Below, one piece after another: positions 21,264 through 52,287 of a stretch of 64,000 bases of DNA (the first letter of the stretch is position 1; each line of letters opens with the position of its first letter). Location: positions 1-64,000 of the IMG/VR virus record IMGVR_UViG_3300044695_001206. One strand, 5' to 3'. Under the pieces are notes generated by a model that was not told the DNA's origin, did not search any database, and saw only the letters and a program-made list of their open reading frames with translations. The stretch comes from a virus. A program made the translations under genes and the position numbers.

Positions 21264-21800
21264 TTAGAATGGAAGGTCTTCGTCCTCAGTCTCTTCAACT
21301 TCGGGCGCAGACTTTGTAGTGGCTGCACCAACATATCCACCATCGACAGCACTAAAGCCACCGCCAGTAGATCCGGTCATATTGTTGGCATTCTTCTCCA
21401 CAATCTGAATACCATTAAGGTAAACAGATAGGCTGTTATCACGGGCGACAACAGCGGGAGCAAGCTTCAAGCGAACCTTGTCACCGCCAAAAGGAACTGC
21501 ATCAGTTTCCTGTGCAGCAGAATCTACGCAAGGGAATTTACCCTGCTCGACATACATTCGGCTCTTTGCCTTGAATGTCTTGACTCCATCCTTCTCCATG
21601 ATACCATTGATCTTCTTAGCACCAGACTGCTTGAGCAACTCAGCGAGCTTCTTCTCAAGAGTCTTGTCAAGAAGAATCGTAATGTTATGGTTAGCCGAAG
21701 CTTCACCAAAAGCCGTATCTGGCTTAAGAAGATTGCTCCACTTAACTTCAACAACCTCAGTCACAAACTGAGGCATCTTCTTCATCTTCTTATTAACCAT
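21264..21800 (-). CDS. Single-stranded DNA-binding protein (T7 gp2.5-like)
   Basis: A 178-aa protein. An OB-fold-like core (KWSNLLKPDTAFGEA, then VRLKLAPAVVARDNS and VYLNGIQIVEK) is followed by a Gly-rich linker and a very acidic tail ending EDEDLPF. The acidic tail with terminal aromatic residue is the protein-interaction arm of gp2.5 and other SSBs, contacting polymerase and helicase. It overlaps the previous ORF by 8 bp. Confidence 0.85.
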   Translation of the reverse strand: MVNKKMKKMPQFVTEVVEVKWSNLLKPDTAFGEASANHNITILLDKTLEKKLAELLKQSGAKKINGIMEKDGVKTFKAKSRMYVEQGKFPCVDSAAQETDAVPFGGDKVRLKLAPAVVARDNSLSVYLNGIQIVEKNANNMTGSTGGGFSAVDGGYVGAATTKSAPEVEETEDEDLPF

Positions 21801-21999
21801 TAGTGGTCTTGTCCTTATTCATTTCGCTAGTGATCTGATTCACTTGCATGTTTAGGTCGTTAACAATAGCACTCAGACCGGAAGCAAGTCCGCTGAGATA
21901 CGCAACTACGCTATCACTACGGATAGCAGGAACCATTTCCTGTGCGGGAGTGGTAACTTCAGTAACAACTCCATCAATCATTTCAGTTTCAGTGTTCAT
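21793..21999 (-). CDS. Hypothetical protein, first gene after a phage promoter
   Basis: A 68-aa protein from MNTETEMIDG, chosen because AAAGGAG precedes it; the longer reading crosses the promoter. The C-terminal half is a heptad-like helix (LSGLASGLSAIVNDLNMQVNQI). Its place as leader gene before SSB suggests a replication-associated role, but I recognise no family. Confidence 0.65.
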   Translation of the reverse strand: MNTETEMIDGVVTEVTTPAQEMVPAIRSDSVVAYLSGLASGLSAIVNDLNMQVNQITSEMNKDKTTNG

Positions 22000-22030
22000 A
22001 ATTTTTCTCCTTTCTGATATACAGTATATC

Positions 22031-22048
22031 TGTAGCCCCAACCATTGG
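22031..22048 (-). promoter_or_regulatory. Candidate phage RNA polymerase promoter 2
   Basis: The minus strand reads CCAATGGTTGGGGCTACA, directly followed by a perfect GATATAC-T-GTATATC palindrome (22016-22030) that would fold at the 5' end of the transcript, then the ribosome site of the next gene. The same promoter-plus-GATATAC layout occurs at 34768-34807. It would drive the replication and nucleotide block. Confidence 0.75.
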
Positions 22049-22051
22049 AAC

Positions 22052-22612
22052 TCAGAGTTTTATCAATCTAAACGAATCATTCTTATTTGCCCAAGCAAGC
22101 GACCAAGCAGGAAGTCTTGCCATTATTAGTAATGCAACCTCTGTTCCCGGTACTACTGCTAGGATTTCGCAAACAACAGCTGAATACATAGCAGCGTTTG
22201 GGAATAACTTTAAATTGTTATCAGCCAACCATTGTGTAATCTCTGTAATACGAGCATCGTGCTGTGGGTAAAACTCTTTAATATGTGCTGCTACTTTTTC
22301 CCACTTAGGATCAATAGAATCTTTATAAAAGGAATTACCAAAACCGGGAATAAACATTTTAGCTAAAACTGCAGTATCAATAAACTCTTTAGTCCATGTT
22401 AGATACACCGTTCTAGCTTCACTAATAGGAGCATGATGACCACCAAGTGTCATAATAGCTGCAGCTAATCCATTCTCAAGACGGCCTGTTGTTAGTCCTG
22501 CATTTAGCAGGGAATGCAAACTTGCATTTTCGTTTTGAATAGCGGACTCTTCATGCGCTTCTATAAATAAAGAGTATAAGAGTGGGTCATAGTTATTTAT
22601 CAAACTCAACAT
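22052..22612 (-). CDS. Citrate-synthase-like protein, catalytically degenerate
   Basis: A 186-aa protein whose motif order is that of the citrate synthase / citryl-CoA lyase large domain: NGLAAAIMTLGGHHAPISEA (residues 47-66), IPGFGNSFYKDSIDPK (88-103), LFPNAAMYSAVV (136-147) and IMARLPAWSLAW (163-174). Of the catalytic triad H264/H305/D362 (E. coli), only the first His is kept (H60); the second is N93 in PGFGN and the Asp is A141 in PNAAMYS. Substrate-binding R is kept but the GWIAHW motif is lost. Half the normal size. Ordinary catalysis is unlikely; a CoA- or acid-binding regulatory role is possible. Confidence 0.8.
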   Translation of the reverse strand: MLSLINNYDPLLYSLFIEAHEESAIQNENASLHSLLNAGLTTGRLENGLAAAIMTLGGHHAPISEARTVYLTWTKEFIDTAVLAKMFIPGFGNSFYKDSIDPKWEKVAAHIKEFYPQHDARITEITQWLADNNLKLFPNAAMYSAVVCEILAVVPGTEVALLIMARLPAWSLAWANKNDSFRLIKL

Positions 22613-28363: not shown

Positions 28364-28436
28364 TGGGTCGGGAGAGACTTGAACTCTCAACCAATTGATT
28401 AAAAGTCAACTGCTCTACCTATTGAGCTACCAACCC
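28364..28436 (-). tRNA. tRNA-Lys (anticodon TTT)
   Basis: 73-nt class I cloverleaf: acceptor GGGTTGG/CCGACCC, D arm with GCTC..GAGC, anticodon loop CTTTTAA, T stem GAGAG/CTCTC with loop TTCAAGT, discriminator A; no CCA encoded. It reads AAA and AAG codons, abundant in this AT-rich genome. Confidence 0.95.
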
Positions 28437-28440
28437 GAAA

Positions 28441-28513
28441 TAGCACTGGTGGGAGTCGAACCCACACTTTGTCGATTTTGAGTCGATTGTCTCTGCCTTT
28501 GGACTACAGTGCC
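28441..28513 (-). tRNA. tRNA with anticodon CAA (Leu) on a class I body
   Basis: 73-nt cloverleaf: acceptor GGCACTG/CAGTGCT (first pair G-U), D arm GTC..GAC, anticodon stem ATCGA/TCGAC with an A-C mismatch at the first pair, loop CTCAAAA, T stem GTGGG/CCCAC, discriminator A. CAA reads the Leu codon TTG, but the variable loop is only 5 nt (AAAGT), whereas bacterial Leu tRNAs have a long variable arm. Charging identity is therefore uncertain. Confidence 0.8.
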
Positions 28514-28520
28514 ATAAAGA

Positions 28521-28564
28521 TTCTATGTACCTTGGCGGGTTCAAAGTCCGCTGTATACATAGAA
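28521..28564 (-). other. tRNA-like hairpin between tRNA genes
   Basis: A 44-nt element with a perfect 9-bp outer inverted repeat (TTCTATGTA/TACATAGAA) and an inner 5-bp stem GCGGR/..CCGC around a 7-nt loop. On the minus strand the inner arm looks like an anticodon arm with loop CTTTGAA (TTG, Gln); on the plus strand it looks like a T arm with loop TTCAAAG. D and T arms are missing, so it is not a normal tRNA: a deletion remnant or a processing structure. Confidence 0.5.
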
Positions 28565-28597
28565 CCCGTAAGAAAAATGTCATACTATTTCTTACAA

Positions 28598-28671
28598 CAT
28601 CCCTGACAGGGATTGAACCTGTAGCCTATGACTTAGAAGGTCATTGCTCTATCCAATTGAGCTACAGGGAT
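28598..28671 (-). tRNA. tRNA-Arg (anticodon TCT)
   Basis: 74-nt perfect class I cloverleaf: acceptor ATCCCTG/CAGGGAT, D stem GCTC/GAGC, anticodon stem ATGAC/GTCAT with loop CTTCTAA, T stem ACAGG/CCTGT, discriminator G, no CCA. It reads AGA and AGG, rare in many hosts. Confidence 0.95.
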
Positions 28672-28676
28672 AAACA

Positions 28677-28752
28677 TGGAAGGGGCGGGAATTGCACCCA
28701 CATATTCACGCTTATAAGGCATGCGCTCTATCTACTTTTCAGCCACCCTTCC
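28677..28752 (-). tRNA. tRNA-Ile (anticodon TAT)
   Basis: 76-nt cloverleaf: acceptor GGAAGGG/CCCTTCC, D stem GCT/AGC, anticodon stem CATGC/GCGTG with loop CTTATAA, T stem GTGGG/CCCGC with an unusual loop TGCAATT, discriminator A. It reads the rare Ile codon ATA directly, without needing lysidine modification. The T-loop change TTC to TGC is odd but keeps the fold. Confidence 0.85.
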
Positions 28753-32702: not shown

Positions 32703-33000
32703 TAGTTCCTTTTACTTGAGCAAAGACCGGGATTGAGAAAGAAACAGGAAAGATATCCACAAGATATTTCACCTATGGATACCCGATCTATCCTTTTATT
32801 AGTTTGACGATTGACAAGTATAAGGATGGACTACTTGCCTCACCGTTAGCATTGCCCTATGAAACGGTACACATTAAAGGGTGTTTCACTTCCTTTAACT
32901 GACTTCAGGGTTGCTAAAGTTCCCCCATGTATATCCGTCGATATACACGGGACGCACTATGCTTATTACTCTATTTATACTCGCATAGTCGAGTAATCTA
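32703..33000 (-). other. Early leader without genes; several RNA hairpins
   Basis: No supported ORF; the 66-aa reading at 32895-33095 lacks a ribosome site and coding character. Hairpins: 32924-32951 (12-bp stem CCCRTGTATATC type, loop of 4), an ACTCG/CGAGT stem near 32970-32990, and TTAAAGG/CCTTTAA near 32870-32900. T7 early mRNA is cut by RNase III at intergenic hairpins; these could serve likewise. Confidence 0.5.
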
Positions 33001-34865: not shown

Positions 34866-37800
34866 TTATTCTAACAATTCGCCTAATCTTTCTGATACAC
34901 CCTTCTGGTCTTCTACCATTGGGAATGTATTATTGGATTCAGGTCTTGGCATGGTCTGCCTCATGCTCATTTCTCTTTGCATGGCCTCATTAGCTTGCTG
35001 CTGCTCCAAGGCATAGTTCCTTGGGGTAGTAGTGTAGTCTAGCTGAATGGGCTTAAATTGACTCTGGGATCTCTTAGAGTAGGGGTATGGATCTCTTTGG
35101 ACCATATCCAGATACCGTTGAATGGCATCCATTTCCTTGAAAGTATTCATATCCTCTAGCATCCTTACGGGGATAGCTACAGGGCTACGGTTAACCAACG
35201 AGGTAACTCCGAATAGATCACTGGTAGCCTTTAGGGATCTAGCTGAGATTGGATCTTGGATCACCTTTTGGATGTTCCTATAATCTGTCTCAATAGCTCC
35301 CATACCAGCTCCAGCTCCAGCTGGCATCAGGGGTACGCCATAGTACTTGTAAGTACCTCCGGTCATTCCTGCTACCGTGCTAACTCCAGCTTCAATCAAT
35401 CCATTGGCAATGCCTAGGAATGGTACACGGGACACTCCACGGAGTACATACTGACCGGGCTGGTCTTCCAGCTCCTGCAGCATGTCCTCAGTTTCACGAC
35501 CAGCAAGCCATTCCTTGAACAGACCAATCATGGTATCCAGAGCAGCATACAAGAAGATACCGCTAGCGATATACTTGATGGTGCTACGGCTACCGTAGTC
35601 TAGAACAACATTGTCTTGGTAAGACCGTACCCAAGAGGTAAGGGCATACCACATGCGGCCTAGAGGACTACGAGCATCTAAAGCAGTGAGCTTATTTAAA
35701 CCCTTAAGTTCTGAGGTAGAGGTCTTGATAATCAGGTCTTCAACCATCTGGGCATAAGCCGAAATAGCTGATTCAAGAATATCAGGATTAATTCCATCTA
35801 CAGGATTATCCCTCAGATCTTCATGGATGTCCATAAGGTTTAGAATATTAGTTCTACCATCCTTATGTCCAGCCTTTTCCATTACCCACTTTAGGTGTCG
35901 AATCTGTTCTTTAGTAGTCAAGCCATACTTCAGGAATAGGGCAGCTTCGTTGGGATCTCCGAACTTTGCTTGGTGTCTTGCAACACTAGCAAACTTCTTC
36001 CAGAGCTTAGCCTCTGCACGGCTATCAGTGGCAGCGGCCTTCTTAAGCTCAGCCAACTCAGTAGCCGTAGCGGTTTCCTCTAAAGCATCAAACAATGCTT
36101 CTACCTTACCCTTGCTAACATACTTCCAGATCATTCTCTGGATACGCTGCTTAGCCAAGGCACGGGTTCCGTTAGTTACTGCCTGAAGAGAACCAATGCT
36201 TTGCATCCACTTACCCGCTTCTTCAAATGTTCTGGTGGCTTTCTCCAATCCACCCTGACCATCTTTAATGTTGGATATAGTGCTAGCAACCTTGGTGTCT
36301 AGTCTTGAATCACTCTTGAATGCTCCATATCCAATCTCGCCCATAAAGCGATTAGCTAGATCGGTTCTAAAGTTTTCAAGAACAAAGGACATATCTCCAA
36401 TATCAGACTCCAGTAGTCTACGCTTTGAGAAGCGGTAGTCAGCCAAGACATATCGCAATGCCTTGATGATATTTATTGGAATCATATAGAACTCTGGACT
36501 CTGCTTTGCCAGCTCTGCCATAGTTTCGGTCATAGCCGAGATACCATAACCAGCTGAGAACTTGAAGCGGATTGCTGCCAATCCGATTCTAGCTGAGTGT
36601 CCTGTTTCTGCATTGAGATATGGCAGTGTGTCAGCATTAAACTGATATTCTTCACGGAGTCTCTTAAGACCCTCAGCCAAACCCTTTTGGGCATTGCTGA
36701 GTTCCTGTGGAGTCCAATTCATAGCTGCTGCCATAGTATCAAAGTTTTCATATCCGGTCTTTTCCACATAGTCAAAGACATCAAGGATTGTGATTCCAGT
36801 CTGTCCAAACATGCGGTCTAGTTCCTTCTGGAAGGCTAACTCAAAGTAGCGTCCCTTGAGGAAGTAGAAGTAAGACTCGGCCATATTAGTTCTGAGTATT
36901 GCCTTTGTCTCAGGACTGCTTAACATTTCTTCTGGGGTTAGACCCTTGATTGGAAGAATTGTTTTTCCGTCTGGGTCGATCTTGAAGAAGGGCTGCTTAG
37001 TAATAGAGTTGAAGTCATCTGGGTTGTTGTAAGGATATTGCTTAGTCTTAAACTTCAGCATTTCCTTCATTTCAACTTCAATGAGATTCTTTCCATTAAG
37101 CTTGGTTCTCCACCGATCAATGTACATGGCTGTGTTGCCATTGACTGCTTCGATGTACTTGGCTTTGTCGGCAGGAGCAAGATCAGTAATCTTCTCTGGT
37201 ACACGGTATACAGTATACTTAGTGTCTGTTTCCAGAACAAAGAACTTCTCTTGCTGGTTCTTTCTGAGCAACCGAACAATATCTGCCTTGTTGCCAGTGA
37301 TGCCTTCCTTAGCCATGTCAGCCACAAACAACTTCTGGAGTGTTTCATTGCTGAACATGTTAGCCATCTCTGCATGCTTGAACACACGATCAGGAGTAAA
37401 GATACTTAATGTCTTTGCATCCTCATTATAAGCAACATCCAACCAACCCATAGCAATCATTGTATTGATGTCTAGAATTGGATCTTTGAGCTTACGGTTT
37501 GTTCTAGCCTGTACCATAGCTGCAAGGAGTTTACTTCTTGCACCTTGGTCTAGTCGTGACAAACCTTCGTGGTCCAACTGAACGGGAGCATAGGTATCTG
37601 AAGATACGGGATTACCGTTTTCGTCTACAATGCTCATACGACCTGTCTGACTTTCTAAATCAAGAATGTTTCTATTTGCAATACGAGAAGCCTTGAGTAC
37701 CATAGAAGCTTGCTTGACTACTTCTTCTGCCTTATAAGCAGGAATACCAAGAGCTACTAGGTCTGCCTTATTAGGCTGTCGATTCATAAATAGACATTCA

Positions 37801-40800
37801 TAAACATACATATCAAGAGCAGCCTTGGTTGCATTGGTCATGCGTGGAACAATATTATGCATTCTAGCATACTCGCGGAAGATACGAGTCATCAATCGAC
37901 CTTCTTCTGCACGGAGCTGCATTGCAGTCTTGAATGCTGTCTTTCCTGCTCCAACCAAGTGACCTGTTTGGGTCTTGGTGTCATCAAAGAATCTAGATAC
38001 AAAGGCTAAAGCATCTACAGTACTACGAAGGGTATTACCCAAACCAGTAGCACTTTGTGAGGCATTAACTCCCTTGTTCATTAGATTCTCCCACCAACTT
38101 CTACTCTCTCGCTGGTTTCCTCCGAATACCCAACCAACCAAGTTATTGAGGCGCATTAGCCGAGAAGCACCAGCTTCTGTTTGGTCAATAGCCTTACCAA
38201 TAACTTTTTCTTTTGGAGTGGGTGGCTCAGCTTCAACAACAACTGGTTTGTCTTCGGCTGGAGCATCGGCAACATCTCGGAGTACAGCATCTGGCTTTGG
38301 TGGTCCAGCAATAACTGGATCTTCGCCAGCAGTATCAATAATAACTTTAGTCTTCTTACTACGGGCAGACATACGATAGTTGCCAGCTTCGTCTGTCTTG
38401 ATGAACTTAACTTCATCAGGTAGCATTGGAATTACAAAGTCTGGCTTACCTTCGACAGCTACTTCCTTCGCTGCCTGTTCCAGAATCTGACGATAAGACT
38501 TTAGTTTCTTAGCACTACCCGGACCCTCTGTTACTTTAAGTCTAAGTTCGTCTGCCTTGATTCGATCTACAGCAGCCCAGAACTTATCCATAATATCGTC
38601 ACCAAGAATTCTCTTGTTGGCATCGGCAATGAATTGATTTACATTGACAAAGTGTGACCACATCTTTTTAAACATTGGTGTCATGGTTTCGCCACCATCC
38701 GCTTCGATCTTAGATTCCCAATACTTCTTTAGGAAGTTCTTTAAGAATCCAACATCCATTCCAGACTGTCTTAACAACTTAGGATCTTCGTTGACCTTGC
38801 GCTCAACGCGATCAGCTTCAGGTGTCTTGACTACTTCACTCTCTGTCTTTTCAACAGGAACTTCTTTCTTTGGAGGAAGTGGAATTCGTGGTGTGCTTGG
38901 CTCCATTGTCTTGCTCTCAGCTTTTGGCTGAGGCTTTTTCTTTGGAACTTTTTTCTTTTCAACTTTAACAGGGAAGTCCTGCTTCTTTGGTTGAGGCTTA
39001 CGCTCTTTAGAGATAACACTAAGAACAGGTTTCTTATTATCTGTTGTTATTACAACAGTTGGTTCAGCATCTGGTTCTTTCTTAATGACAGTCTCACCAA
39101 TAGGTTTGACATCTTCAATCTTTACAGGAATTATAGAACCATCTTTAAATACCAATGCATCCATGCCAAGACGATCAGCAGACTTCATTATTTTAGCAAG
39201 CTTTTCAGGTTGCTTAGATAACTCAGTACTACTTTCAACTTCCATCTTTAATGGACGCTTAGGAGTAAACTGAACAGCTTCTTTACTTGCTGTAGAAGAA
39301 CCCTGTATAATTGCGTCTGCTTGCTCAGCAGGGCGCAGTACGGGATCTGGTGCATTACCAGTGACTTCATCAGTTACTCTGTAAACCACAGCCTCAGTAT
39401 CCTTTGGAACTGGAACTGGCACTGGAGCTGGATTTTTATTCTTCAGCTTCTCAGCAATAGCTGCTGTCTGTGCCATCAATGCACCAGCATCAACAGGACT
39501 TTTCTCAGTCTTTGGTTTCTTTTTAGTAACCTTTTTAAGAACATCAGCTGGCTCACTTGGCTTAGCTTTATTTACTTTAGCTTCTACAGTATCAAAGTGT
39601 TTATTAAGAGCAGTAATAATTTCATCTTTACTGCTATTCATTTTAACAGCAGTCTGTTCAAAGATATCTGTAATCTTTGCTAACAATTTAGTACGATAGT
39701 TTCCAGCTGTTCTTGTGGATACCTTTAACTGTGCTGCTGCTTCTTCCATACTATTAGAAGTCATAAAAGTACCAATCAACTTAATCTCTTGTTCAGTCAG
39801 TATTCTACCGTTTGTAGCGGTATTATACTCAATAATGTCAGAGAAAATAGTTGCTCTGGTTTCTTTATCAGTTGTCGTAATCCGATCAGCAGCAGTAATT
39901 CTTGGTGGTTTATCACCTTCTTTTAATGTGCCTTGTTCAGTATATAAACTTTCTGTTTTTCTTTTTCCTGTCTTCTTTGGCTTCTTTAAGTTAGCCGCTG
40001 TAGTATGAATATAGCCGATTAAATTTCTGGCAGTCTTTAAACTACCATCTTCAATTTTAGATAAGACTAATTCTAGATTACCAGCAAAAGCATTTTCCCC
40101 TACTTCTTCTTTATCAGGCCGTGGCACAATCATGCTAGTAGCTGCTTCAACAAAGAAGTTATCTGAGGTTTCTCCTCTAGAAGCTTTTTTAATAATCTGA
40201 GATACAATATCAACAAGATTATCTTTAGTTAAAACTGTTGTCTCAAAAGTAACAGCTTCTTTTTGAGCTTCAGCTATAGCTCCCTTTTTACTCTTGGTTA
40301 GTTTAATACCCCAAGTTTGTGTGTCTTCATTTAGAACAAGACCATCTTCTTCCAGTAGTTTACTTACTGCCCCAACTAATTTCTTAGGAGTCTTGTAACT
40401 CTTAACTAAATAAGAATACATTGAGCTTGAAAGATTGCTCTTTAGTAATACTTGGATCTGCTCTAATGTTAACTTTTCTTTTAACATTAAACCAAGAGAA
40501 GTATTAGCAACATCCTTATTAGGCCACTGTGGGGCTGGTTTATCAGCGTCAGTAATACTAACTGAGAATACACCTTCTTCTTTCATGTTATCAATAAAAG
40601 ACTTGTGGTGTGCTTCGACAACCATATCTGATAGCTCAGGTAGTCCCACATTATCAAGATAGATTCGGAGTTTATCAATAAGAGATGTATTTAGTGCAGT
40701 GTCTTGTCTAAGCACTCCAATTAAAGCATCTGCTTCGATATCAGAAAGAGAACTTGGTGTTAAACCTTTACCGCTAGATCGGGTAGAAGCCAAAGCCTCT

Positions 40801-43800
40801 ATAAGAACATTTCCATTTGTTCCTAAGAAACCGACAGCATATGGAATACCAGAACCTGTTGGGTCTAGATAATCCATAGTATCAAGGCTTCTTAAATCTC
40901 TATCTTGATATAGAGCTGGAATAATAGGAGCAGCTTTTACAAGTGGCTTACCTTTTTTCCCAATAAATGGAATTCTATACTCAACACTATTAATGGAGAA
41001 TAACTCGTTTTTAATAATTTCTAGACGCTCAAACTTATCAAAGCCAATCAAAGTTGAGTATGCATTTGTTCCAATTAGGTTTGCAATCTTTACTTGCAAT
41101 GAAGTAAACTGAGCTTGCTTATAGTCTTTATAAGCATTAACCAAATCTACGACACCTTTTGTAAGGTTGCCATTTGCATCCACAAAGGTTCTCTTATCAG
41201 CCTTCATTATAGACAAAGCAATAATAAAGCCGGGATCTTTTTTGGTATTACGGAAGATATTTACTTCAGCTTGTGTTAAGTGGAATGGCGTAGCATCGCT
41301 ACCTTCAAGGGCATCATCAAGTGCCTTGTTATATTCTGTAGCGTTTTCTACTGTATTGAGTAACTTATGAAGCTTTGCATAAGCACCAGCTAGCTTTGGC
41401 ATAGAAACAAAAGTATTTGTTTTTGATTCTATGTCTGTAATGCTGTCGATAATTTCTTTAGCAATCTTGTAGTGCGTAGAGTTATCAAACATTGCAGCAG
41501 CCAAGGTAACACTAGTAGCAATCTTATCCAATACTGATTGCAACCTAGATACCTGCATTGGTGTCAAGATACTCATAGCAGCTTCAGCTTCAGTAAAAAG
41601 AATCTTTGAGAAAGTTTCTACAAAGACTTCTTCTACATTCTGTAAATGATATCCATCTAAGAACTCAGTATTCAGAAGAGGATCTGGAGTTTCAGGTCTA
41701 AGCTGAATAAGCTCTGTTGTGTTTGCAAGAACAGATTGATTGTACAAGCGCAATGCTTGTAAGTAATTGCTTCCGCTTGTTTCATGTTCAAAGTAAGCGT
41801 GACCTAGCTCATGCAACAATGCTTTTGCTTTTCGTGTTTTAACCGAAGCGGCTGTGCCTCTGAAACCACGGTTCATTACTATTACATTATTCTTTGCGCT
41901 AAACTGACCAATAACACTAGGATCTACATTCCCATCTTTTCCTGTAATGCTGTCAACAATAAAGCGGACATTAAAAGCTCTAGAGTTGAAGTTTAGATGA
42001 ACAACTGAAGCTAGTAACAAATCTCTGTCTGATACAGAAATCATGTCGTTATCGACCAGCTCATTTACATAGTTAAAGAACTTGAGTGCATTGTCTCTAT
42101 TTCCTTCAACCAGATCAACAAACTTTTCTGGGTCTTGAACAATAGCTTTAATTTTTCTAACACGATCTTTATCAAGCTTAGCTGCAATAAGAGCTTTTTG
42201 AGCTTCCTTGAAAGACCGTGAAACTCTAGAAACTTTTGGAGGTGCTTCACCAGCAATGCTTCTTCTTAGAGTATCAGCAGTCTCTTCACTGATATTACCA
42301 GTTAGCTTATGTTCAATTACTGCTGCATCAAAAGTATCCAATACTTCTACTGGTACTTCTGGTTTGATTGCAGCTTCTCTATCTTGAGAAGTTGCAGCAG
42401 ATCGTGCAGCCTCAAGAAGTCTAACAGACAACTCATCGGAGTCTGCTTTTCTTTCAGCAGCTGGCTTGGCAGTGTTTCGTGCTTCCTTTAGAAGCTCTGG
42501 TAAGTTTCGTGTAGACTTCTTCTTACCTTGTTCAAACTCTGCCTTGATAGCTTTAAACTCTTCTTTGGTTAGCTTCTTCTTAAGACGGCCAAACCAAGCT
42601 GAGCGACTCTTTTCTAGTTCATCGTAAACCCGTTCCCGCTCTTTTGGAAGACCGACAGCTTCTGTTTCTGCTTTCTTGGCATCTTCCAACATCTTCTTAC
42701 CGTTGAACAAGACACGCATTTGGTCTTGAATTGACATTTGATCGAACTGCTCACCAGCTTCAATGAAGCGTTCGCTTCCCTGCTTAGTGGTTCGTCTGGC
42801 AAACTCAGTCATAACCTCAAAGATATTGCGGACAGCTCTGTTAGGAGCTACTCGGGCAACATACTCTGGAACTGTTTCGCCTTCGTATCGTCGTGTGCCA
42901 GCATCTTCTGGTGTAGCTCGGGCTGCATCAGGAGATCTAGCTGCTTCTCTTGTTTCTGCGCGATCAACTCTAGCTTCGGTATCAGCAGCTAGCTTTTCAG
43001 GAGTTACTTCTGTATTTTCAATTACAGACTCCATAGTAGCCTTTTCAACAACAGGAGCATCAATCAATGCGCGTTCTCTGCGATTGAAGACACCTCTAAT
43101 ATTGTCAATACTGTTACCTAGTGGGGTAGATTCAAAAGTAAATCGCTTATCTGCAATGTTTCTGAATCCAGTCTTTGGATCAATAAGAACACCAGACAAC
43201 CGATTATTGACAGCTCCAATGCCGCTGCGTAGAAGACCACCACCCAAACCAAACACACCACCGAAGAGTGCGCCTGATTCTAAAGCGGATGTAGCCATCA
43301 TAGAAGCATTGTAATCCATCATTGCATTAGGGTTGGCATATAAAGTAGCAGCACCGAAAGCAATCTCTCGCTTCTGTCTGGCATACTCAGATAAACCCCC
43401 TTGTACAGCACCAAAGGTAAATGATGCAGCTGCTCCACGGATAAGACCAAAGTTAGCTACATACGAAGGCATGATGCCTAGTGGTAGTTTATATAAAGTC
43501 TCAGTGGTATAAGCTGTAGCTCGTAGAGCGCGACCTGTAAATGAAGCAGCGTCATAAGCTTTCTTAAGTCTTAGGAATAATGAAGTGCCTCCCAAAGCAG
43601 TAGTAGCTGCAGAAGCTGCAACGCCACCAGCAACTGCACCAGCAGCTGTACCGGGTGGGCCACCTATGAAAGTACCAGCAAGAGCAGAGACACCCATCAA
43701 AGTCAGTTCAGCTGTTGCGCTAGGAATTGTATCTGGGCTGTTAATCATGCCACCAACAAAAGTATCACGAAGCAATCTGAATTTATCAGCAGTTGTTGGA

Positions 43801-44642
43801 GTGTATGTAGCCATCCTACGCTGCATATCAGTTGAGTTTAACTGAGCCATAATCCGCATCATGGCATGATCAGCATTAGGAGAATCAGCAATAAAATCCT
43901 GAGTAATACCATTCTCTAATAGATATTGCGATACAATGTCATCAGAGAACTTTCCATAATACCAAGAACGAGAATCAAAGTTTGGGTCTTCTCTATTGAG
44001 AACCTTTTCAATATCTTTAGTATCACCAGCTAATTCTTGATCGGCAAAGTAACCAGTAAGCCCAAAGACATCCTGAGCCATCATCTGGTCAATCCAATCG
44101 AAGCCTAGCTTTTCGGTTGCTTTATTCTGTGCTTCTGAATAAGCAATCTTAGCAGTTAGATCTCTAATCTGCTTTTGTCTATCAGATAGCTGGTCGTAGG
44201 AGAGGGTAGAAACATCTACCCCCTCCTCGGCCTCCAGCATCATGTTTAGACTCTTTAGATCTGCATCAATGGCTTCTTTGGTAAGCTCTGAGTCTCCATA
44301 ACGGAGAGGTGTCAAAGGAGCCTTACCAATAAACTGTCGCCATGTTGCACCCTTTGTGGGATCATTGGCAATACCAAGAATGCCATCTGATACACCAGTA
44401 AGGTTTCCTTCCATAGCACCAAGAGCTTGTGTCAGTGCGTAGTACTGGTTATAAGTTTCTACTTTCTTGATATCACCTCTTGTATAAGCAAGAGGATTGG
44501 TCAAGTTTGATGGATCTAGAAACTCTAGATTATCTCCATCATAAGCAGCCAGTACCTGACCGGGCGCATAAGCATTTAGTCTTAGCGGCCCAGCCGTAGG
44601 TGTTTCTGGAACAATAGGAAAACCTTCAGAGAAATTTAACAT
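34866..44642 (-). CDS. Giant internal virion (ejection) protein, gp16 position, multidomain
   Basis: A 3258-aa protein, 2.5 times T7 gp16 (1318 aa), in the place of internal virion protein D. Residues about 310-480 are Gly/Ala-rich and hydrophobic, suited to membrane insertion. A metallopeptidase-type HELGH motif is at 944-948 (LLHELGHAYFEH). A sigma-region-4/LuxR-like helix-turn-helix is at about 1614-1656 (LTEQEIKLIGTF, MEEAAAQLKVSTRTAGN). Residues 1700-2080 hold Lys/Pro-rich linkers and a small DALVFKDGSIIPVK domain. The last 1100 residues, helical and ending in an ALDTMIGLF membrane-like segment and a Gln/Arg-rich tail, resemble T7-like ejection proteins. No transglycosylase motif seen. 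Confidence 0.85.
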   Translation of the reverse strand: MLNFSEGFPIVPETPTAGPLRLNAYAPGQVLAAYDGDNLEFLDPSNLTNPLAYTRGDIKKVETYNQYYALTQALGAMEGNLTGVSDGILGIANDPTKGATWRQFIGKAPLTPLRYGDSELTKEAIDADLKSLNMMLEAEEGVDVSTLSYDQLSDRQKQIRDLTAKIAYSEAQNKATEKLGFDWIDQMMAQDVFGLTGYFADQELAGDTKDIEKVLNREDPNFDSRSWYYGKFSDDIVSQYLLENGITQDFIADSPNADHAMMRIMAQLNSTDMQRRMATYTPTTADKFRLLRDTFVGGMINSPDTIPSATAELTLMGVSALAGTFIGGPPGTAAGAVAGGVAASAATTALGGTSLFLRLKKAYDAASFTGRALRATAYTTETLYKLPLGIMPSYVANFGLIRGAAASFTFGAVQGGLSEYARQKREIAFGAATLYANPNAMMDYNASMMATSALESGALFGGVFGLGGGLLRSGIGAVNNRLSGVLIDPKTGFRNIADKRFTFESTPLGNSIDNIRGVFNRRERALIDAPVVEKATMESVIENTEVTPEKLAADTEARVDRAETREAARSPDAARATPEDAGTRRYEGETVPEYVARVAPNRAVRNIFEVMTEFARRTTKQGSERFIEAGEQFDQMSIQDQMRVLFNGKKMLEDAKKAETEAVGLPKERERVYDELEKSRSAWFGRLKKKLTKEEFKAIKAEFEQGKKKSTRNLPELLKEARNTAKPAAERKADSDELSVRLLEAARSAATSQDREAAIKPEVPVEVLDTFDAAVIEHKLTGNISEETADTLRRSIAGEAPPKVSRVSRSFKEAQKALIAAKLDKDRVRKIKAIVQDPEKFVDLVEGNRDNALKFFNYVNELVDNDMISVSDRDLLLASVVHLNFNSRAFNVRFIVDSITGKDGNVDPSVIGQFSAKNNVIVMNRGFRGTAASVKTRKAKALLHELGHAYFEHETSGSNYLQALRLYNQSVLANTTELIQLRPETPDPLLNTEFLDGYHLQNVEEVFVETFSKILFTEAEAAMSILTPMQVSRLQSVLDKIATSVTLAAAMFDNSTHYKIAKEIIDSITDIESKTNTFVSMPKLAGAYAKLHKLLNTVENATEYNKALDDALEGSDATPFHLTQAEVNIFRNTKKDPGFIIALSIMKADKRTFVDANGNLTKGVVDLVNAYKDYKQAQFTSLQVKIANLIGTNAYSTLIGFDKFERLEIIKNELFSINSVEYRIPFIGKKGKPLVKAAPIIPALYQDRDLRSLDTMDYLDPTGSGIPYAVGFLGTNGNVLIEALASTRSSGKGLTPSSLSDIEADALIGVLRQDTALNTSLIDKLRIYLDNVGLPELSDMVVEAHHKSFIDNMKEEGVFSVSITDADKPAPQWPNKDVANTSLGLMLKEKLTLEQIQVLLKSNLSSSMYSYLVKSYKTPKKLVGAVSKLLEEDGLVLNEDTQTWGIKLTKSKKGAIAEAQKEAVTFETTVLTKDNLVDIVSQIIKKASRGETSDNFFVEAATSMIVPRPDKEEVGENAFAGNLELVLSKIEDGSLKTARNLIGYIHTTAANLKKPKKTGKRKTESLYTEQGTLKEGDKPPRITAADRITTTDKETRATIFSDIIEYNTATNGRILTEQEIKLIGTFMTSNSMEEAAAQLKVSTRTAGNYRTKLLAKITDIFEQTAVKMNSSKDEIITALNKHFDTVEAKVNKAKPSEPADVLKKVTKKKPKTEKSPVDAGALMAQTAAIAEKLKNKNPAPVPVPVPKDTEAVVYRVTDEVTGNAPDPVLRPAEQADAIIQGSSTASKEAVQFTPKRPLKMEVESSTELSKQPEKLAKIMKSADRLGMDALVFKDGSIIPVKIEDVKPIGETVIKKEPDAEPTVVITTDNKKPVLSVISKERKPQPKKQDFPVKVEKKKVPKKKPQPKAESKTMEPSTPRIPLPPKKEVPVEKTESEVVKTPEADRVERKVNEDPKLLRQSGMDVGFLKNFLKKYWESKIEADGGETMTPMFKKMWSHFVNVNQFIADANKRILGDDIMDKFWAAVDRIKADELRLKVTEGPGSAKKLKSYRQILEQAAKEVAVEGKPDFVIPMLPDEVKFIKTDEAGNYRMSARSKKTKVIIDTAGEDPVIAGPPKPDAVLRDVADAPAEDKPVVVEAEPPTPKEKVIGKAIDQTEAGASRLMRLNNLVGWVFGGNQRESRSWWENLMNKGVNASQSATGLGNTLRSTVDALAFVSRFFDDTKTQTGHLVGAGKTAFKTAMQLRAEEGRLMTRIFREYARMHNIVPRMTNATKAALDMYVYECLFMNRQPNKADLVALGIPAYKAEEVVKQASMVLKASRIANRNILDLESQTGRMSIVDENGNPVSSDTYAPVQLDHEGLSRLDQGARSKLLAAMVQARTNRKLKDPILDINTMIAMGWLDVAYNEDAKTLSIFTPDRVFKHAEMANMFSNETLQKLFVADMAKEGITGNKADIVRLLRKNQQEKFFVLETDTKYTVYRVPEKITDLAPADKAKYIEAVNGNTAMYIDRWRTKLNGKNLIEVEMKEMLKFKTKQYPYNNPDDFNSITKQPFFKIDPDGKTILPIKGLTPEEMLSSPETKAILRTNMAESYFYFLKGRYFELAFQKELDRMFGQTGITILDVFDYVEKTGYENFDTMAAAMNWTPQELSNAQKGLAEGLKRLREEYQFNADTLPYLNAETGHSARIGLAAIRFKFSAGYGISAMTETMAELAKQSPEFYMIPINIIKALRYVLADYRFSKRRLLESDIGDMSFVLENFRTDLANRFMGEIGYGAFKSDSRLDTKVASTISNIKDGQGGLEKATRTFEEAGKWMQSIGSLQAVTNGTRALAKQRIQRMIWKYVSKGKVEALFDALEETATATELAELKKAAATDSRAEAKLWKKFASVARHQAKFGDPNEAALFLKYGLTTKEQIRHLKWVMEKAGHKDGRTNILNLMDIHEDLRDNPVDGINPDILESAISAYAQMVEDLIIKTSTSELKGLNKLTALDARSPLGRMWYALTSWVRSYQDNVVLDYGSRSTIKYIASGIFLYAALDTMIGLFKEWLAGRETEDMLQELEDQPGQYVLRGVSRVPFLGIANGLIEAGVSTVAGMTGGTYKYYGVPLMPAGAGAGMGAIETDYRNIQKVIQDPISARSLKATSDLFGVTSLVNRSPVAIPVRMLEDMNTFKEMDAIQRYLDMVQRDPYPYSKRSQSQFKPIQLDYTTTPRNYALEQQQANEAMQREMSMRQTMPRPESNNTFPMVEDQKGVSERLGELLE

Positions 44643-44682: not shown

Positions 44683-47600
44683 TTAAGCGATTCGTTCGTT
44701 TGTTTCTGGAATTACTACAGCTACGGAGTTGAAAATATCTTTAATAGCTTTTCTATAATAATCGTTTTCTGGAAAAGCTTTAAACATTAAATTCCAAATA
44801 TGATAGCCAGATCTTTTTGACTTATGTTTTTCTTCTTGGTGTTTTGAAAGTGTTTCAAACATTTCACCAATATCTTCAAATGTTGCTGTTTCTGGCTTAA
44901 ACGATTTATTAGTAAGTAAATAATAATCTGCTTTAGCTTCGGCCAACCACACAGGCATTTCTACTTCGCTAAACACATATCTCAAATACTCTATACCTTT
45001 ATTCTGTGCTTCTATATCATCGGGATATTCTTTTTTAAACTCAGCCCAAACTTCGTGTGTAAGATTATTCCAAAAACGGTTTATTTTTCTAATATGAAGA
45101 GGTTGTGCAGTATGTGATAGTTCATGTAGCATTGATGTACTATCCGTTTGCCCTTGTATATCAAACCATATCCAACTTCCTTTTTCTCTATCTGGTACTG
45201 CCATACCCTCAGCGTTTAAATCTTTATCAGTAGTATATACTGGTATTTTTCTATCTAGTACCGTTTCTTTATATAAAGGAAGACTGGTTTCAGAAACTCC
45301 TGCTATATTTTTATTTGTTTCCCTAAACTTTAATGCTTGTTTAAAAAGCTCTTCTGCTTTTTCTTTTCCATATATTTTTTCATAACTTTCTCGTAATGTT
45401 TTAGTATATGCAAATTTAAATTCAAAGCCAGAGTATTTTCGTGGTTTTCTTAAATTTGCTTCATTTTTATTTTCTTCTATAGCTTTTCTCATATCTGAAA
45501 CTATAGTTTGTCCTAAATCAGACAATACCGTAACTACTTTAGAAATATCTGCTTTTGAAGTTTCTATTAGTTTTCTTTCAGTTCTTTCTGTTTCTTCAGC
45601 TTGTTGTTGTTGTAACATATCGGCAATCATACTAACTCTTGTTGAGACTGCATTCTTGCCGGGACGGGTAAAGTACCCATCTGGTTTTAAAGTCAAAGCA
45701 AAGAAATTACGCTTAATCATAGCCAATGCGTTTGGATCTTTAGCAATTGCCATTGCTTCTTCTTTAGTTATAGTTTCTTGTGCAGATATGATAGCTTGAT
45801 GAAGTTCATCAGCAAACTGATTTGTTTTAAAAGAATCCATTACAAACTGGTCATCTGAAATGGTTTCTAGTGCTGCGTTGAGCTGCTCCATTTCTGACTT
45901 ATCTTTAAACTCTGTAGATGCTAAAACTCTAATTTGATACTCTAGCTCTAAAGGAGTAAACTTTAAGCTTTTAATCTTTGTCCAAGATGATTGTGTTAGA
46001 CCACTAGAAGTAATTGAATTATAATCAAAATCAGCCGTCTTAACAAAGTTAACTAAGTTAAAAGCTTTTTCTGGAATCGTAATACTATCATTAGCAGGAA
46101 TATTAGTCCTACGCAATAAAGCCGTATCATCATTACCAAAGATTTTAGGGAACCATTTTGTTGGATCTTGTCTAATACTTTCTTGACGATACATAGTAAT
46201 AGCATCTGGATAATTACCAAGTAATACCTGTCTCATAGACATTCTAGGATCAGTAGCCGACTTTAGTAGCTGCTCAAATTGAGGAGCATACTTTAGCAAC
46301 TCTTGTTCTGACATAGTTTTATTTAAGATGGTTTCAAGTTCTGGGTAAACAGACTTAAATTGTTTTTTAGTTTCTATACCACTAGACTGCCACCATCTAC
46401 GAACATTATCAATAAGATCTGTAATTGAGTATTCTTTGTTTAACCAAGATTTAGATGCTTGATTTTTAGCCCAAGCTTCTGGACTAGACCGTTCAGTTGC
46501 AGGCCAAACATCCATATCCATATTAAAGTTGGATAAATCATTTATGATTCTATCAAAAGTTGTTTTTTCTTTTAGTTTAGAGTGTCCGGGTAAAAAGTAT
46601 TGTTCAGGTATTTCAGCTGGTTTAAACGGAAAACTATTATGTTCTAAATAAATTTTACCCCAATCAATAAAGCGGAAGTCATTAAACGACTTTAGATCAG
46701 TATCATAAGAATACTTCATAAACTCTTTATGAAAACTTTCTAGCTGTTCTGCTGGTATAGTTGATGGTCTAGATAGCTCAGCAATACCATTTGAGCTTGG
46801 CATCTTCTTATCAACAAAGAAAGACTTCTTTGCTTTTTCAACCCTGTCTTGTTTAGCTTTAAACTTACCAATTTCAGACTCCACAACTTCCTGTGGCTTT
46901 GATGAATCAATAACCATAGTGAAATCTTTTGTTGCCTGATCTGGAGTAAACATATAGTAGTTACCGTCTTTCTTGTACAAGTTTAAACCTTGGTTAAGAC
47001 GATCAAAGACCCCATTATAGAATGCTGTACTAGAAGGCTCATAAAGAATAATGCCTTTTTTATTTCCCTCTTTACCTAAGAAATCTTCTGCGGTAGACTT
47101 AGTAATAAACTCTAAGCTTGATTGTCTACCACTAACTAATTCTTTATTTTCACCATATACTTTCATAGCATTAAAAATATAACCCATGAAATCAACTTGG
47201 GTCTTAGCTCCATTTGCTACTGCTTTATCATATAGGATTCGGAGATTCTCTTCAGTAAACAAAGCTTTATTTTTATCATAGATCTGCTTACCATCTGGAG
47301 TAATTGCTACTTCCCAAGCAAGCTCTTGAACATCAGTTAGTTGAGGATCAGACTTAACAATATCGTGGAAAGCTACATTGTTCTGAGTAAAGAATGTTAA
47401 TGCTCTTTCAAAAGAAGACAATGGTTCATTTATAGTAGTAAAGATAACTGCTCTAGCTGGTAGATAAGATTCATTTACTTGATCAAATACCTGAGGTGGA
47501 GTCATTGTTCCAGTATTTGGAACTGTCTCAACATCATAAGATACTGGCGAAATATCATAGTCTCCAGCTTCTGCTTCTAGATATCTATCTAAACCAGAAT

Positions 47601-49950
47601 TGAATTCTTTTGATACATCTCCTGATCGGTCTGTTTGAGAAGGAATAAAGATTAAAGGCATACCATCCGCTGTTCGTGGGGTAATAGCACCTAGTTCTCT
47701 AGATCCTCTGACAGTCATTACATCTTTATAATCTGTGCCTGATACACCCTTGATCTCATTAAACTTAATTGGAAGACCTCCGCGTGGAGTACCAATAAAG
47801 TTATAGTTCTGTTGGGTAACATCAAGATCAGCTTGTAACCACGGAGCAGCACCCTGCTCAGTCATTACTGGAAGATCATCATAGACGATCTTAGCATAAG
47901 CGAGTCGCTCATCAAAAGATGGTCGTGTCACATCGCTAATGCTAGGAGCCATACCACGCTTTTCCATTGCTGTTGGTGTGGAAGCAATAACTAAACGCAT
48001 AAGCTCAACTAAAGGTATTTGACTGCGAATGCGTTCGCCTCTTTCGCCTCTCTTTGTATAGATAGCTCCATTAACCAAAGCTGTAAATACTTCAGTATCT
48101 AACTTTGGGCTAATCTGTCTTGCAAAGCGTAGTGAAACATCTTCAAGATTTTCTCCAGTTACATTACCTGTCCAGTTTGTACTGAACAAGTGAGCACCAA
48201 CCAAAGCTTTATTTTGTTCTTTAGTTGCTATAGCTTTATCGTTTGAAGTAAGTCTTTCTCTTTTTTCTTCGGGTAAACCAGCAAGCTTAGGTGTGCTTAG
48301 TAGACGCTCTCTAGCTCCACTAAAGTACATTAAGTTAGGTGTATAGATAACATTTGGTATACCAGTAGCTTCATTTGGAAGAACCAAATAGCCTTCCCGC
48401 TTAATATGTTCTTTTAACAGTTGAGTCATATCAGCATTTTTGCGGTCTGGATTATCTCTATAGAGATTTTCATTAGCATCCATAATAGCTGTGATTCTAG
48501 CAACCATAGGAATAAGCGCAGGGTTCTGAGTAAGCAAAGCTGATGCCGACATCTCAGGAGTTTCATCAACTAAGTTCTGACCAGTAGTTGTAAAAGATAA
48601 TGCATCTTCTTCTAAACCTAAGTTAAACTCTGCAGCTATACCATTAAGGACTGTTGTTAGTTCTTCATACTTAGTTACTTCTGTTGGATTCTCTGCAACA
48701 TTGTAAAGAGTTGCACCAGACCGTAGCTTTTGGATACGACCCCAAGTTCCTTTTAGCATCTCCCGGTTAAGACCAGTGATCTGAGGAAGCTGTGTTAACT
48801 CAAAGCCATTCTTAATATGCATGCGCATCATAGATAGTTTAATCTTTTGTCCTTCATCAAGACCTTCGATTCTATCTATTGCATTCTCTGATAAATGATC
48901 TGGAACATTAGCAAAAGCTGTTGCCACATAAGCAGCCATACCATTGTTTGGTTGTTCTGTTTCAACAACATCTTTTATCATTCGTTCCATATCTAAAGTA
49001 AATTGACCACTAGAATTCATTACAGCACTATAAGGCCCATATGAAAAATTATCTATATCAACCAATCTTTTAAAGTCATCGGGTGATTGTAATGCATCAA
49101 TATACTGTGGTTGGAAATACCATTTACCATCTTCTCTTTTAACAACAGGTGAATTTACTTCGCCTGTCATTGGATCGGAAATAGTTAGCTGACTCCAGTT
49201 ACCAGACATGTCTTTTTCAAATCCTATTATTGGTAGGTTTGGATTTTCTGGGTGTGCAGGAAGAGGGAATGCTCCCAAAAATACTTGTGGTTGGATCTTT
49301 GAATCTCTTACACCAGCACCATTCTTCCAAGCAGCATAACCTTCTTCTTCCTTTACTGCACCATTAATAACTCTTTGTGTTTCATAAAGAAGTTTATTTG
49401 CAAACTTATCAATATCTCGTAGAGAGCTTCGTGATGTCAGCGCTAGTTCTTGATACTTAAGACCAAGACTAGTTATATCTAAATCCTCAGCAAAATAATT
49501 AGCACTACCTAAAACATTAATAGCTTCGTCTTTAAAACTTTCTTTTGTCTTTTGGATCTCTGTTACTAAATCATTAATTACTTTGCTATTAGGCGGTCTT
49601 TTTTCTTTATCGGCATTATAAATCTCAGTACTCTGCTGGAGATAGAAATCATCCAGTGTACTCTGATATTTATCCTTAAGTTCTACTACACCATTTCTTT
49701 TGGAAGTAATAAGGTAGTCTAGAACATTTTCATAAGTTTGTGCAGCTAGTTGAGAAGCGTTTTGACCTAGAGTATACCAATCAATATTGGCAGCTTCAAT
49801 TCCAATCTGCTGCTGTGCAAACTGTACTTGACCTTCCTGATAAACATTGGCAACTTCAGGAGGAGTAAATCCAGCCTGTGGGCCTGTCTCAAAGATAGTC
49901 TGCTGTAGTGGCTCTAGTCCACCACCCATTTGATTATTCCGTTGTGCCAT
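44683..49950 (-). CDS. Large internal virion protein with C-terminal HExxH metallopeptidase-like domain
   Basis: A 1755-aa protein in the position of T7 gp15 (747 aa). The N-terminal 150 residues are helical and Gln-rich. Most of the chain is alpha-helical, with no membrane helices. The C-terminal domain has H1609-ELS-H1613 and a downstream E1671 in VWLAEAKADYY, the zinc ligands of a gluzincin-type peptidase. A D-Q-G-rich strand (WIWFDIQGQTDST) precedes the motif. It is likely ejected into the host with DNA, where the peptidase may cut host proteins or open the wall. It overlaps the upstream ejection gene by 17 bp. Confidence 0.82.
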   Translation of the reverse strand: MAQRNNQMGGGLEPLQQTIFETGPQAGFTPPEVANVYQEGQVQFAQQQIGIEAANIDWYTLGQNASQLAAQTYENVLDYLITSKRNGVVELKDKYQSTLDDFYLQQSTEIYNADKEKRPPNSKVINDLVTEIQKTKESFKDEAINVLGSANYFAEDLDITSLGLKYQELALTSRSSLRDIDKFANKLLYETQRVINGAVKEEEGYAAWKNGAGVRDSKIQPQVFLGAFPLPAHPENPNLPIIGFEKDMSGNWSQLTISDPMTGEVNSPVVKREDGKWYFQPQYIDALQSPDDFKRLVDIDNFSYGPYSAVMNSSGQFTLDMERMIKDVVETEQPNNGMAAYVATAFANVPDHLSENAIDRIEGLDEGQKIKLSMMRMHIKNGFELTQLPQITGLNREMLKGTWGRIQKLRSGATLYNVAENPTEVTKYEELTTVLNGIAAEFNLGLEEDALSFTTTGQNLVDETPEMSASALLTQNPALIPMVARITAIMDANENLYRDNPDRKNADMTQLLKEHIKREGYLVLPNEATGIPNVIYTPNLMYFSGARERLLSTPKLAGLPEEKRERLTSNDKAIATKEQNKALVGAHLFSTNWTGNVTGENLEDVSLRFARQISPKLDTEVFTALVNGAIYTKRGERGERIRSQIPLVELMRLVIASTPTAMEKRGMAPSISDVTRPSFDERLAYAKIVYDDLPVMTEQGAAPWLQADLDVTQQNYNFIGTPRGGLPIKFNEIKGVSGTDYKDVMTVRGSRELGAITPRTADGMPLIFIPSQTDRSGDVSKEFNSGLDRYLEAEAGDYDISPVSYDVETVPNTGTMTPPQVFDQVNESYLPARAVIFTTINEPLSSFERALTFFTQNNVAFHDIVKSDPQLTDVQELAWEVAITPDGKQIYDKNKALFTEENLRILYDKAVANGAKTQVDFMGYIFNAMKVYGENKELVSGRQSSLEFITKSTAEDFLGKEGNKKGIILYEPSSTAFYNGVFDRLNQGLNLYKKDGNYYMFTPDQATKDFTMVIDSSKPQEVVESEIGKFKAKQDRVEKAKKSFFVDKKMPSSNGIAELSRPSTIPAEQLESFHKEFMKYSYDTDLKSFNDFRFIDWGKIYLEHNSFPFKPAEIPEQYFLPGHSKLKEKTTFDRIINDLSNFNMDMDVWPATERSSPEAWAKNQASKSWLNKEYSITDLIDNVRRWWQSSGIETKKQFKSVYPELETILNKTMSEQELLKYAPQFEQLLKSATDPRMSMRQVLLGNYPDAITMYRQESIRQDPTKWFPKIFGNDDTALLRRTNIPANDSITIPEKAFNLVNFVKTADFDYNSITSSGLTQSSWTKIKSLKFTPLELEYQIRVLASTEFKDKSEMEQLNAALETISDDQFVMDSFKTNQFADELHQAIISAQETITKEEAMAIAKDPNALAMIKRNFFALTLKPDGYFTRPGKNAVSTRVSMIADMLQQQQAEETERTERKLIETSKADISKVVTVLSDLGQTIVSDMRKAIEENKNEANLRKPRKYSGFEFKFAYTKTLRESYEKIYGKEKAEELFKQALKFRETNKNIAGVSETSLPLYKETVLDRKIPVYTTDKDLNAEGMAVPDREKGSWIWFDIQGQTDSTSMLHELSHTAQPLHIRKINRFWNNLTHEVWAEFKKEYPDDIEAQNKGIEYLRYVFSEVEMPVWLAEAKADYYLLTNKSFKPETATFEDIGEMFETLSKHQEEKHKSKRSGYHIWNLMFKAFPENDYYRKAIKDIFNSVAVVIPETNERIA

Positions 49951-51019: not shown

Positions 51020-51799
51020 TTATGGATTAAAGTAAACACTACCTACTCCTGTGTATGGTGCTGCTTGGCTACTTATATTCCCATATCCCGGCATAACTCT
51101 TCTTGATTCCATATCAGCACTTGCATATGGAGCACTACCGCCACCACCACCGCCACCGAATCCGCCGCCATATTGCAACTGTGCATTAATACCAGCAGAC
51201 GCACCCTGCAGACCAGCCTGAATAAGTCCGGTTGTCAAAGCGGCACTAGAGTTATCTGGAATACCACCCTTAGCTGGAATAAAGATACCAAGATCTGGGG
51301 CAATAGATGAAGCTCTTTGGGCAAGCCGTGCTTGCTGTTGAGTTACAATATCCTGATAGGCACTTCTATGGTTTAACTTTAGAGCTACCATGTTATTACC
51401 TAGTGACTCAATGTTCTGACGGAATAAGGCTCGGGCTGTACCACTAGTTGGGTTCATTCCCCGGCCTGTTGTTGCTGCCAAGAACTGTGCGTTAACTTGA
51501 GCAGTCTGTTTACTTAGTGTACTTTTTTGATTGTTAAAAGACTTGTCTAAATAAAGCTCGGCCATTGCTCGTTCTTTATTTGCAGCCCTTTCAATTTGTA
51601 CATTTCTTTCAAGATTAGCTTGGAACTGGCGCATTGTATTTCTATCTTGCGCCTGCTTTTGCCACTGTGCTTGAAAGTTTGCATTACGCTGCTGGATTTC
51701 TGCAGCCATTGCTTGAGACTTAGCTTGGCTTGAAGCACCAAGCGCACCCATTACTCCTGAAGCTAAAGCCATTCCACCAAGTGCAATTGCTACGCCCAT
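51020..51799 (-). CDS. Internal virion protein B (T7 gp14-like)
   Basis: A 259-aa protein with the gp14 plan: a Gly/Ala-rich hydrophobic N-terminus (IALGGMALASGVMGALG), a long Gln/Asn-rich helix (residues 25-120), and a Gly-rich C-terminus with a run of Gly (GGGFGGGGGGG). gp14 forms the outer-membrane pore of the ejection tube. It overlaps the sulfotransferase-like gene by 10 bp. Confidence 0.82.
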   Translation of the reverse strand: MGVAIALGGMALASGVMGALGASSQAKSQAMAAEIQQRNANFQAQWQKQAQDRNTMRQFQANLERNVQIERAANKERAMAELYLDKSFNNQKSTLSKQTAQVNAQFLAATTGRGMNPTSGTARALFRQNIESLGNNMVALKLNHRSAYQDIVTQQQARLAQRASSIAPDLGIFIPAKGGIPDNSSAALTTGLIQAGLQGASAGINAQLQYGGGFGGGGGGGSAPYASADMESRRVMPGYGNISSQAAPYTGVGSVYFNP

Positions 51800-52287
51800 T
51801 TTAGTCCTCTTTCTATGAATAAGAGAATTTCATCTAACGAAGAATTTAGATCTTCAGTATAGACTCTCTTTAGTTTAGTTTCTTCAAAAGTTGATAACCA
51901 TTTTTCTGTATTCTCAATAAAAGGAAACAATGAAGATGAAGGAGAATCTAAAGACAATAATGAAGGATTTAATCTACATTCATCTTTAAATACCTTATAA
52001 ATGCTAGCTAGTTGAGCTAGTTTATCTTGTCGTTCTAATACAACAATACCACCTATATTTTGTTTATCAATCGTTAAAAAAGTAGGATACCATAGTTTAA
52101 CCAAACAATTATTTATTGTTGGATTGTATATAGGTGTTTCCCAATATCCATTTATATTGTGTTCTTCGACAGTTAAGTTAGATATAAACTTATGTCCATG
52201 TATAGGTATTCCTTTTTGTTTTGCTTGTTGCATTACAAAGGATGTCCCTGTTCTTGGACCTAAGCCTGTTACTATAACTATACTCAT
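51790..52287 (-). CDS. Sulfotransferase-like P-loop protein
   Basis: A 165-aa protein. The start VTGLGPRTGTSFVMQQA resembles the PAPS-binding loop of sulfotransferases (GxxRxGTS), and VVLERQDKLAQLASIYK matches the 3'-phosphate-binding R-x-D/S helix. It is shorter than usual (about 250 aa). It is wedged between large terminase and gp14-like genes with 4-bp and 10-bp overlaps, so it is expressed with virion genes. Possible role in modifying a virion protein or a surface sugar; unproven. Confidence 0.6.
   Translation of the reverse strand: MSIVIVTGLGPRTGTSFVMQQAKQKGIPIHGHKFISNLTVEEHNINGYWETPIYNPTINNCLVKLWYPTFLTIDKQNIGGIVVLERQDKLAQLASIYKVFKDECRLNPSLLSLDSPSSSLFPFIENTEKWLSTFEETKLKRVYTEDLNSSLDEILLFIERGLKWA

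Follow-up and report, generated by a model that had tools for sequence, protein, structure and literature searches.

Citrate synthase contacts CoA through its PGFG loop and Lys/Arg324 and holds oxaloacetate with His238, Arg329 and Arg421'. The active-site histidines of the pig enzyme are residues 235, 238, 274 and 320, and residues 275-385 make up its small domain (PMC4524684); His274, His320 and Asp375 are given as active-site residues in the same numbering (PMC8455617). GltA and PrpC, the citrate and 2-methylcitrate synthases of family PF00285, are about 370-430 amino acids long. The other described systems that resemble the protein reported here are the citryl-CoA lyase of Hydrogenobacter thermophilus (6hxp), likewise a short relative of citrate synthase, and the lyase module of ATP citrate lyase. 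Earlier work has classed phage citrate-synthase-like genes as auxiliary metabolic genes supplying the TCA cycle, and in a Lake Baikal virome 'gltA' is listed as a viral auxiliary metabolic gene and treated as citrate synthase (PMC8066274). Among the open-access papers listed by our literature searches, none describes a citrate-synthase pseudoenzyme in a phage.

Here we describe a phage gene whose product resembles these enzymes and differs from them at the active site. It lies in a window of 64,000 nucleotides, by which we mean the whole stretch of DNA that was analysed (positions 1 to 64,000 of IMG/VR record IMGVR_UViG_3300044695_001206). Sequence comparisons and structural models point to a branch of the citrate synthase superfamily that is specific to phages and keeps only the small domain and the large-domain helices that flank it. 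The protein very probably makes no citrate and does something else that is useful to the phage.

The gene and its neighbourhood

The window belongs to a 67,410-base virus record of a T7-like phage for which we found no close cultured relative. Its single-subunit RNA polymerase is 25.4-27% identical to the best isolate-phage matches, its primase-helicase is 40.7% identical to that of Desulfovibrio phage ProddE, and its portal is 33% identical to that of Roseobacter phage CRP-125. Elsewhere in the window, all on the minus strand, are four clustered tRNA genes (Lys, Leu, Arg and Ile; 28364-28752), a match to the Pistol ribozyme (32923-32994; 38.9 bits against an Rfam gathering score of 34.5) and, in the probable virion region, two very long ORFs, one with 3258 codons (34866-44642) and one with 1755 (44683-49950). 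Also on the minus strand, a small P-loop sulfotransferase-like protein is encoded at 51790-52287, adjoining a probable internal virion protein gene.

The citrate-synthase-like ORF, identified as such by Pfam, fold and residue alignment, has 186 codons, occupies positions 22052..22612 and is read on the minus strand (from 22612 to 22052), a strand that the initial annotation had not named. Upstream on the same strand lies a calcineurin-like phosphoesterase gene (PF00149; 22612..23268), the stop codon of which overlaps the ATG of the citrate-synthase-like gene (TAATG). Downstream is a small minus-strand ORF of unknown function (21793..22041), followed by a gene that likely encodes a single-strand-binding protein, as read from its position and sequence with no Pfam match, and then by RusA. 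The initial annotation had placed the citrate-synthase-like gene in the replication block behind a phage promoter. The replication-block placement, in what is a T7-like phage, is borne out, and the promoter is not: the start of the gene overlaps the upstream stop, and promoter-like matches in the region do not exceed chance expectation.

A leader with a ribosome-binding site and potential to form a hairpin (22005..22051, minus strand) separates the citrate-synthase-like gene from the small ORF. The hairpin is weakly supported, with z-scores of only -1.7 and -0.5. The leader (22000-22050, minus strand) contains a conserved GTTGGGGCTACAGATATAC..GTATATCAGAAAGGAG stretch with potential hairpins, which recurs in many relatives whether or not they carry the inserted gene.

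Homology to citrate synthase

The initial annotation had recognised citrate synthase or citryl-CoA lyase from the order of the motifs, and both a profile search and structure prediction agree. The window protein matches the PF00285 Citrate_synt profile with an E-value of 1.1e-7 and 31.7 bits, above the curated cut-off of 27, over profile positions 203-354 of 357, and NCBIfam matches were found as well. Each of the 13 aligned family members matches PF00285 (best E-value 1.9e-12; all E <= 0.05) and no other Pfam family, with two divergent members scoring below the curated cut-off. When a profile was built from the phage proteins alone, it retrieved from the PDB the Thermotoga maritima citrate synthase 2p2w (1.3e-13) and the citryl-CoA lyase 6hxp (5.9e-11). 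The AlphaFold model of the window protein (pLDDT 83.7) has 6hxp as its best PDB fold match (E 2e-5, TM 0.75), and that of a second member, computed from 13 sequences (pLDDT 88.8), likewise matches 6hxp best (3.1e-7). After 6hxp, both models match citrate synthases and methylcitrate synthases; the Foldseek matches to 6hxp and to many citrate synthases have TM values of 0.54-0.79. Homology of the protein to citrate synthase, and its membership in the superfamily by profile and fold, are thus well supported.

The aligned region consists of the small domain, with its citrate-synthase fold present, and the helices on either side of it. Matches of the family to PF00285 begin at profile position 164-203 of 357, and the first 160-200 or so profile positions have no counterpart in the phage protein, so a complete large domain is absent. 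The C-terminal region, the small-domain fold and the motifs around His264, PGFG, PN-x-x-YS and AR-x-x-W are shared with GltA and PrpC. Unlike those enzymes, the phage protein has no N-terminal portion of the large domain and no segment bearing Arg407. Relative to citryl-CoA lyase, it is missing still more of the N-terminal helices and has the citrate-synthase catalytic His and Asp positions replaced; against the curated citryl-CoA lyase family NF004869 it scores 18.7 bits, where 212 are required. The family lacks the tested defining features of both the citrate synthase enzyme and citryl-CoA lyase, though it belongs to their superfamily.

Active-site residues

Residues were compared by HMM alignment in the numbering of E. 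coli GltA, cross-checked against PDB alignments. His264 corresponds to His60 of the window protein and is retained, whereas His305 is replaced by Asn93 and the catalytic Asp362 by Ala141. These alignments confirm the initial reading that the second histidine and the catalytic aspartate have been substituted, but the loss is larger than the two catalytic residues then claimed, since the protein also lacks the N-terminal portion of citrate synthase and the greater part of its oxaloacetate-binding side. Of the His226/His229 pair, aligned through the Thermus thermophilus enzyme, the first is His20 and the second, lost, is a variable residue. Arg314 is Lys103 in the window protein and mostly Ala in its relatives (Ala, Lys or Val across the family), and the Arg407 segment would lie past the C-terminus. 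On the retained side are the PGFG loop, Lys309 (Lys97, with one family member as an exception), Asn360 (Asn139), Arg387 (Arg166) and Trp391 (Trp170). Expressed in pig numbering, the phage protein keeps His235 and His274 and loses His238, His320 and Asp375.

No new invariant acidic residue stands in for Asp362. Glu158 was considered as a relocated catalytic acid and rejected, as it is not kept in the divergent members L117 and L118, and Asp101 aligns with an aspartate that is already present in E. coli citrate synthase.

A family in uncultured viruses

Repeated scans of IMG/VR with patterns and alignments recovered relatives on at least 106 further distinct uncultured-virus contigs, with 80 of the 158 matching stretches examined in the last scan. 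One cluster (at least 80% identity) accounts for 78 contigs, and the most divergent full-length ORFs are only 25-28% identical. The substitutions noted in the window protein recur throughout: the Asp362 position is Ala in all 106 contigs and the His305 position is Asn in 105 and Ser in one (L118), while His60 is present in every one. No homologue with intact catalytic residues at other positions was found among them. In 13 representatives, 16 residues are invariant, including His20, His60, Asp101, Asn139, Ala141, Arg166 and Trp170. Twelve of the 16 fall in segments equivalent to the active site, which make up 27% of the length (hypergeometric P 3.6e-5, for segments picked with the alignment in view).

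In one clade of near-identical phages the gene is under strong purifying selection, with a pooled pN/pS of 0.068 (0.012 for the phosphoesterase). Between the window and contig L023, dN is 0.47 for the citrate-synthase-like gene and 0.12 for the phosphoesterase. Together these values indicate that the gene is maintained, yet is evolving faster than the adjoining replication genes.

Searches outside IMG/VR, which were of limited sensitivity, returned no member of the family. In INPHARED, tblastn gave only low-identity gltA/prpC genes on bacterial-looking contigs labelled as Acinetobacter phage. No relative was found in plasmids by tblastn, which is insensitive at such distance, or in two scans across roughly 85,000 GTDB prokaryote genomes. 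PHROGs gave nothing significant, and the BFVD viral structure models gave no fold match. An intact phage citrate synthase that might represent an intermediate was sought in IMG/VR with the canonical motifs; the single contig retrieved (L067) carries a full-length enzyme beside prophage-like genes and is probably bacterial.

Genomic contexts and the empty site

The gene occurs in several different settings. In the window's group it is placed 3' of the phosphoesterase gene; in L018, L039 and L040 it lies between deaminase and primase genes; in L038, L110 and the large L120 cluster its neighbours are a tail-tubular-like gene on one side and a P-loop gene on the other, both of which it overlaps in L177, L128 and L122; in L117 it follows a probable small-terminase gene; and in L118 it follows a PDDEXK nuclease gene. 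Residence in the replication block is thus not essential, as the commonest branch has the gene among tail and internal-virion genes and close relatives of the window phage have no such gene. These differing contexts indicate that the function of the protein does not depend on one particular neighbour. In L038, L110 and L177, the gene directly 3' encodes a possible distant relative (17-23% identity) of the P-loop sulfotransferase-like protein of the window. A functional pairing of the two genes is not supported, because the P-loop gene is also found in close relatives without the citrate-synthase-like gene.

The citrate-synthase-like gene is accessory. In 23 contigs with a phosphoesterase 83-97% identical to that of the window, it is absent at a clean empty site, where the phosphoesterase stop is followed by a short spacer and then by the leader of the next gene. 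The small ORF at 21793..22041 then lies directly 3' of the phosphoesterase gene, and the leader at 22005..22051 forms the right-hand border of the insertion or deletion. A search of a 66-kb relative, run without a positive control, found no copy elsewhere in that record.

Proposed role and alternative explanations

The reading that we prefer, with a probability that we place somewhat under even, is that the protein is a non-condensing binder built on the citrate-synthase fold that alters host use of acetyl-CoA and citrate. Condensation of acetyl-CoA with oxaloacetate would not occur, because the protein has lost the catalytic base and the greater part of the oxaloacetate side. An acyl-CoA-type pocket may still be presented by the retained His60, PGFG loop and Lys97. 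Produced during infection, the protein would bind a CoA ester, or a host enzyme of CoA metabolism or the TCA cycle, and host acetyl-CoA/citrate flux would thereby be shifted or sequestered. Our case for CoA or acyl-CoA binding consists of the retained residues; the CoA contacts that come from the N-terminal region of citrate synthase are absent from the phage protein, and none of the neighbouring genes points to CoA metabolism.

The same pocket could instead belong to a working enzyme that catalyses a different reaction. It would then have been rebuilt with His20, His60, Asn139 and Arg166, all invariant, and the near-invariant Asn93 at its core, and would act on another CoA thioester or substrate, for example by hydrolysis or lyase chemistry. 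That polar residues of the former active site are invariant across very divergent members, with conservation concentrated there under strong purifying selection, is what such an enzyme would lead one to expect. We nevertheless regard this as unlikely, because no member has the general-base aspartate or the carbonyl-activating histidine, the region of the fold bearing the arginine of the other subunit is missing, and neither Glu158 nor Asp101, which E. coli citrate synthase already has, supplies a new invariant acid. Another possibility is a subunit with a dominant-negative or regulatory action that would use the retained large-domain helices to pair with host citrate synthase, blocking or redirecting the TCA cycle. 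This would agree with the loss of the earlier N-terminal helices while those just before the small domain are kept, which may expose surfaces that are normally covered, and with the accessory status of the gene and its fast evolution relative to the genes beside it. Phages are known to make proteins that subvert host enzymes. Even so, an identity of only about 20% to citrate synthases and a conservation that peaks at the ligand pocket, not spread over the outer helices, make this quite unlikely. More generally, the sharp conservation of the pocket favours a role based on a ligand or on chemistry over a purely surface-based decoy. The initial annotation had conjectured a sensor or decoy subunit that might bind a host enzyme, CoA or an organic acid and so tie phage replication to the carbon state of the host.

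That pocket would stay unexplained if the protein merely reused the fold for counter-defence or another form of host takeover with no tie to CoA or the TCA cycle. Presence or absence at a clean site, in several phage backgrounds and at differing positions, is typical of accessory phage genes; there was no PADLOC match, in a library of defence and not counter-defence proteins, and we consider the explanation improbable. Finally, a shortened protein that has lost catalytic residues could be a decaying, functionless fragment of citrate synthase captured from a host. This is scarcely credible, and is refuted by the occurrence of the same substitutions in full-length ORFs from 106 contigs down to 25-28% identity and by the pooled pN/pS of 0.068.

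Implications

The Lake Baikal 'gltA' (PMC8066274), compared here by its description only, is likewise citrate-synthase-like and carried by a contig of an uncultured phage; whereas it was annotated as citrate synthase, the present family lacks the catalytic residues. Annotation pipelines could misname members of this family 'gltA'. Since at least one common kind of phage citrate-synthase-like gene is very probably unable to make citrate, such annotations need a residue check, for which the fixed His/Asn/Ala pattern across the family provides a simple search motif. The broader proposal, to which we assign only a little less than an even chance, is that these genes constitute a widespread, phage-only pseudoenzyme family that arose from citrate synthase by removal of the condensing residues and acts by binding or rewiring the acetyl-CoA/citrate metabolism of the host, or the enzymes of that metabolism. 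If the protein does act on host CoA or on host citrate synthase, it would give the phage a handle on central carbon metabolism in one small gene, and that handle would be a pseudoenzyme, not an auxiliary metabolic enzyme of the usual kind.
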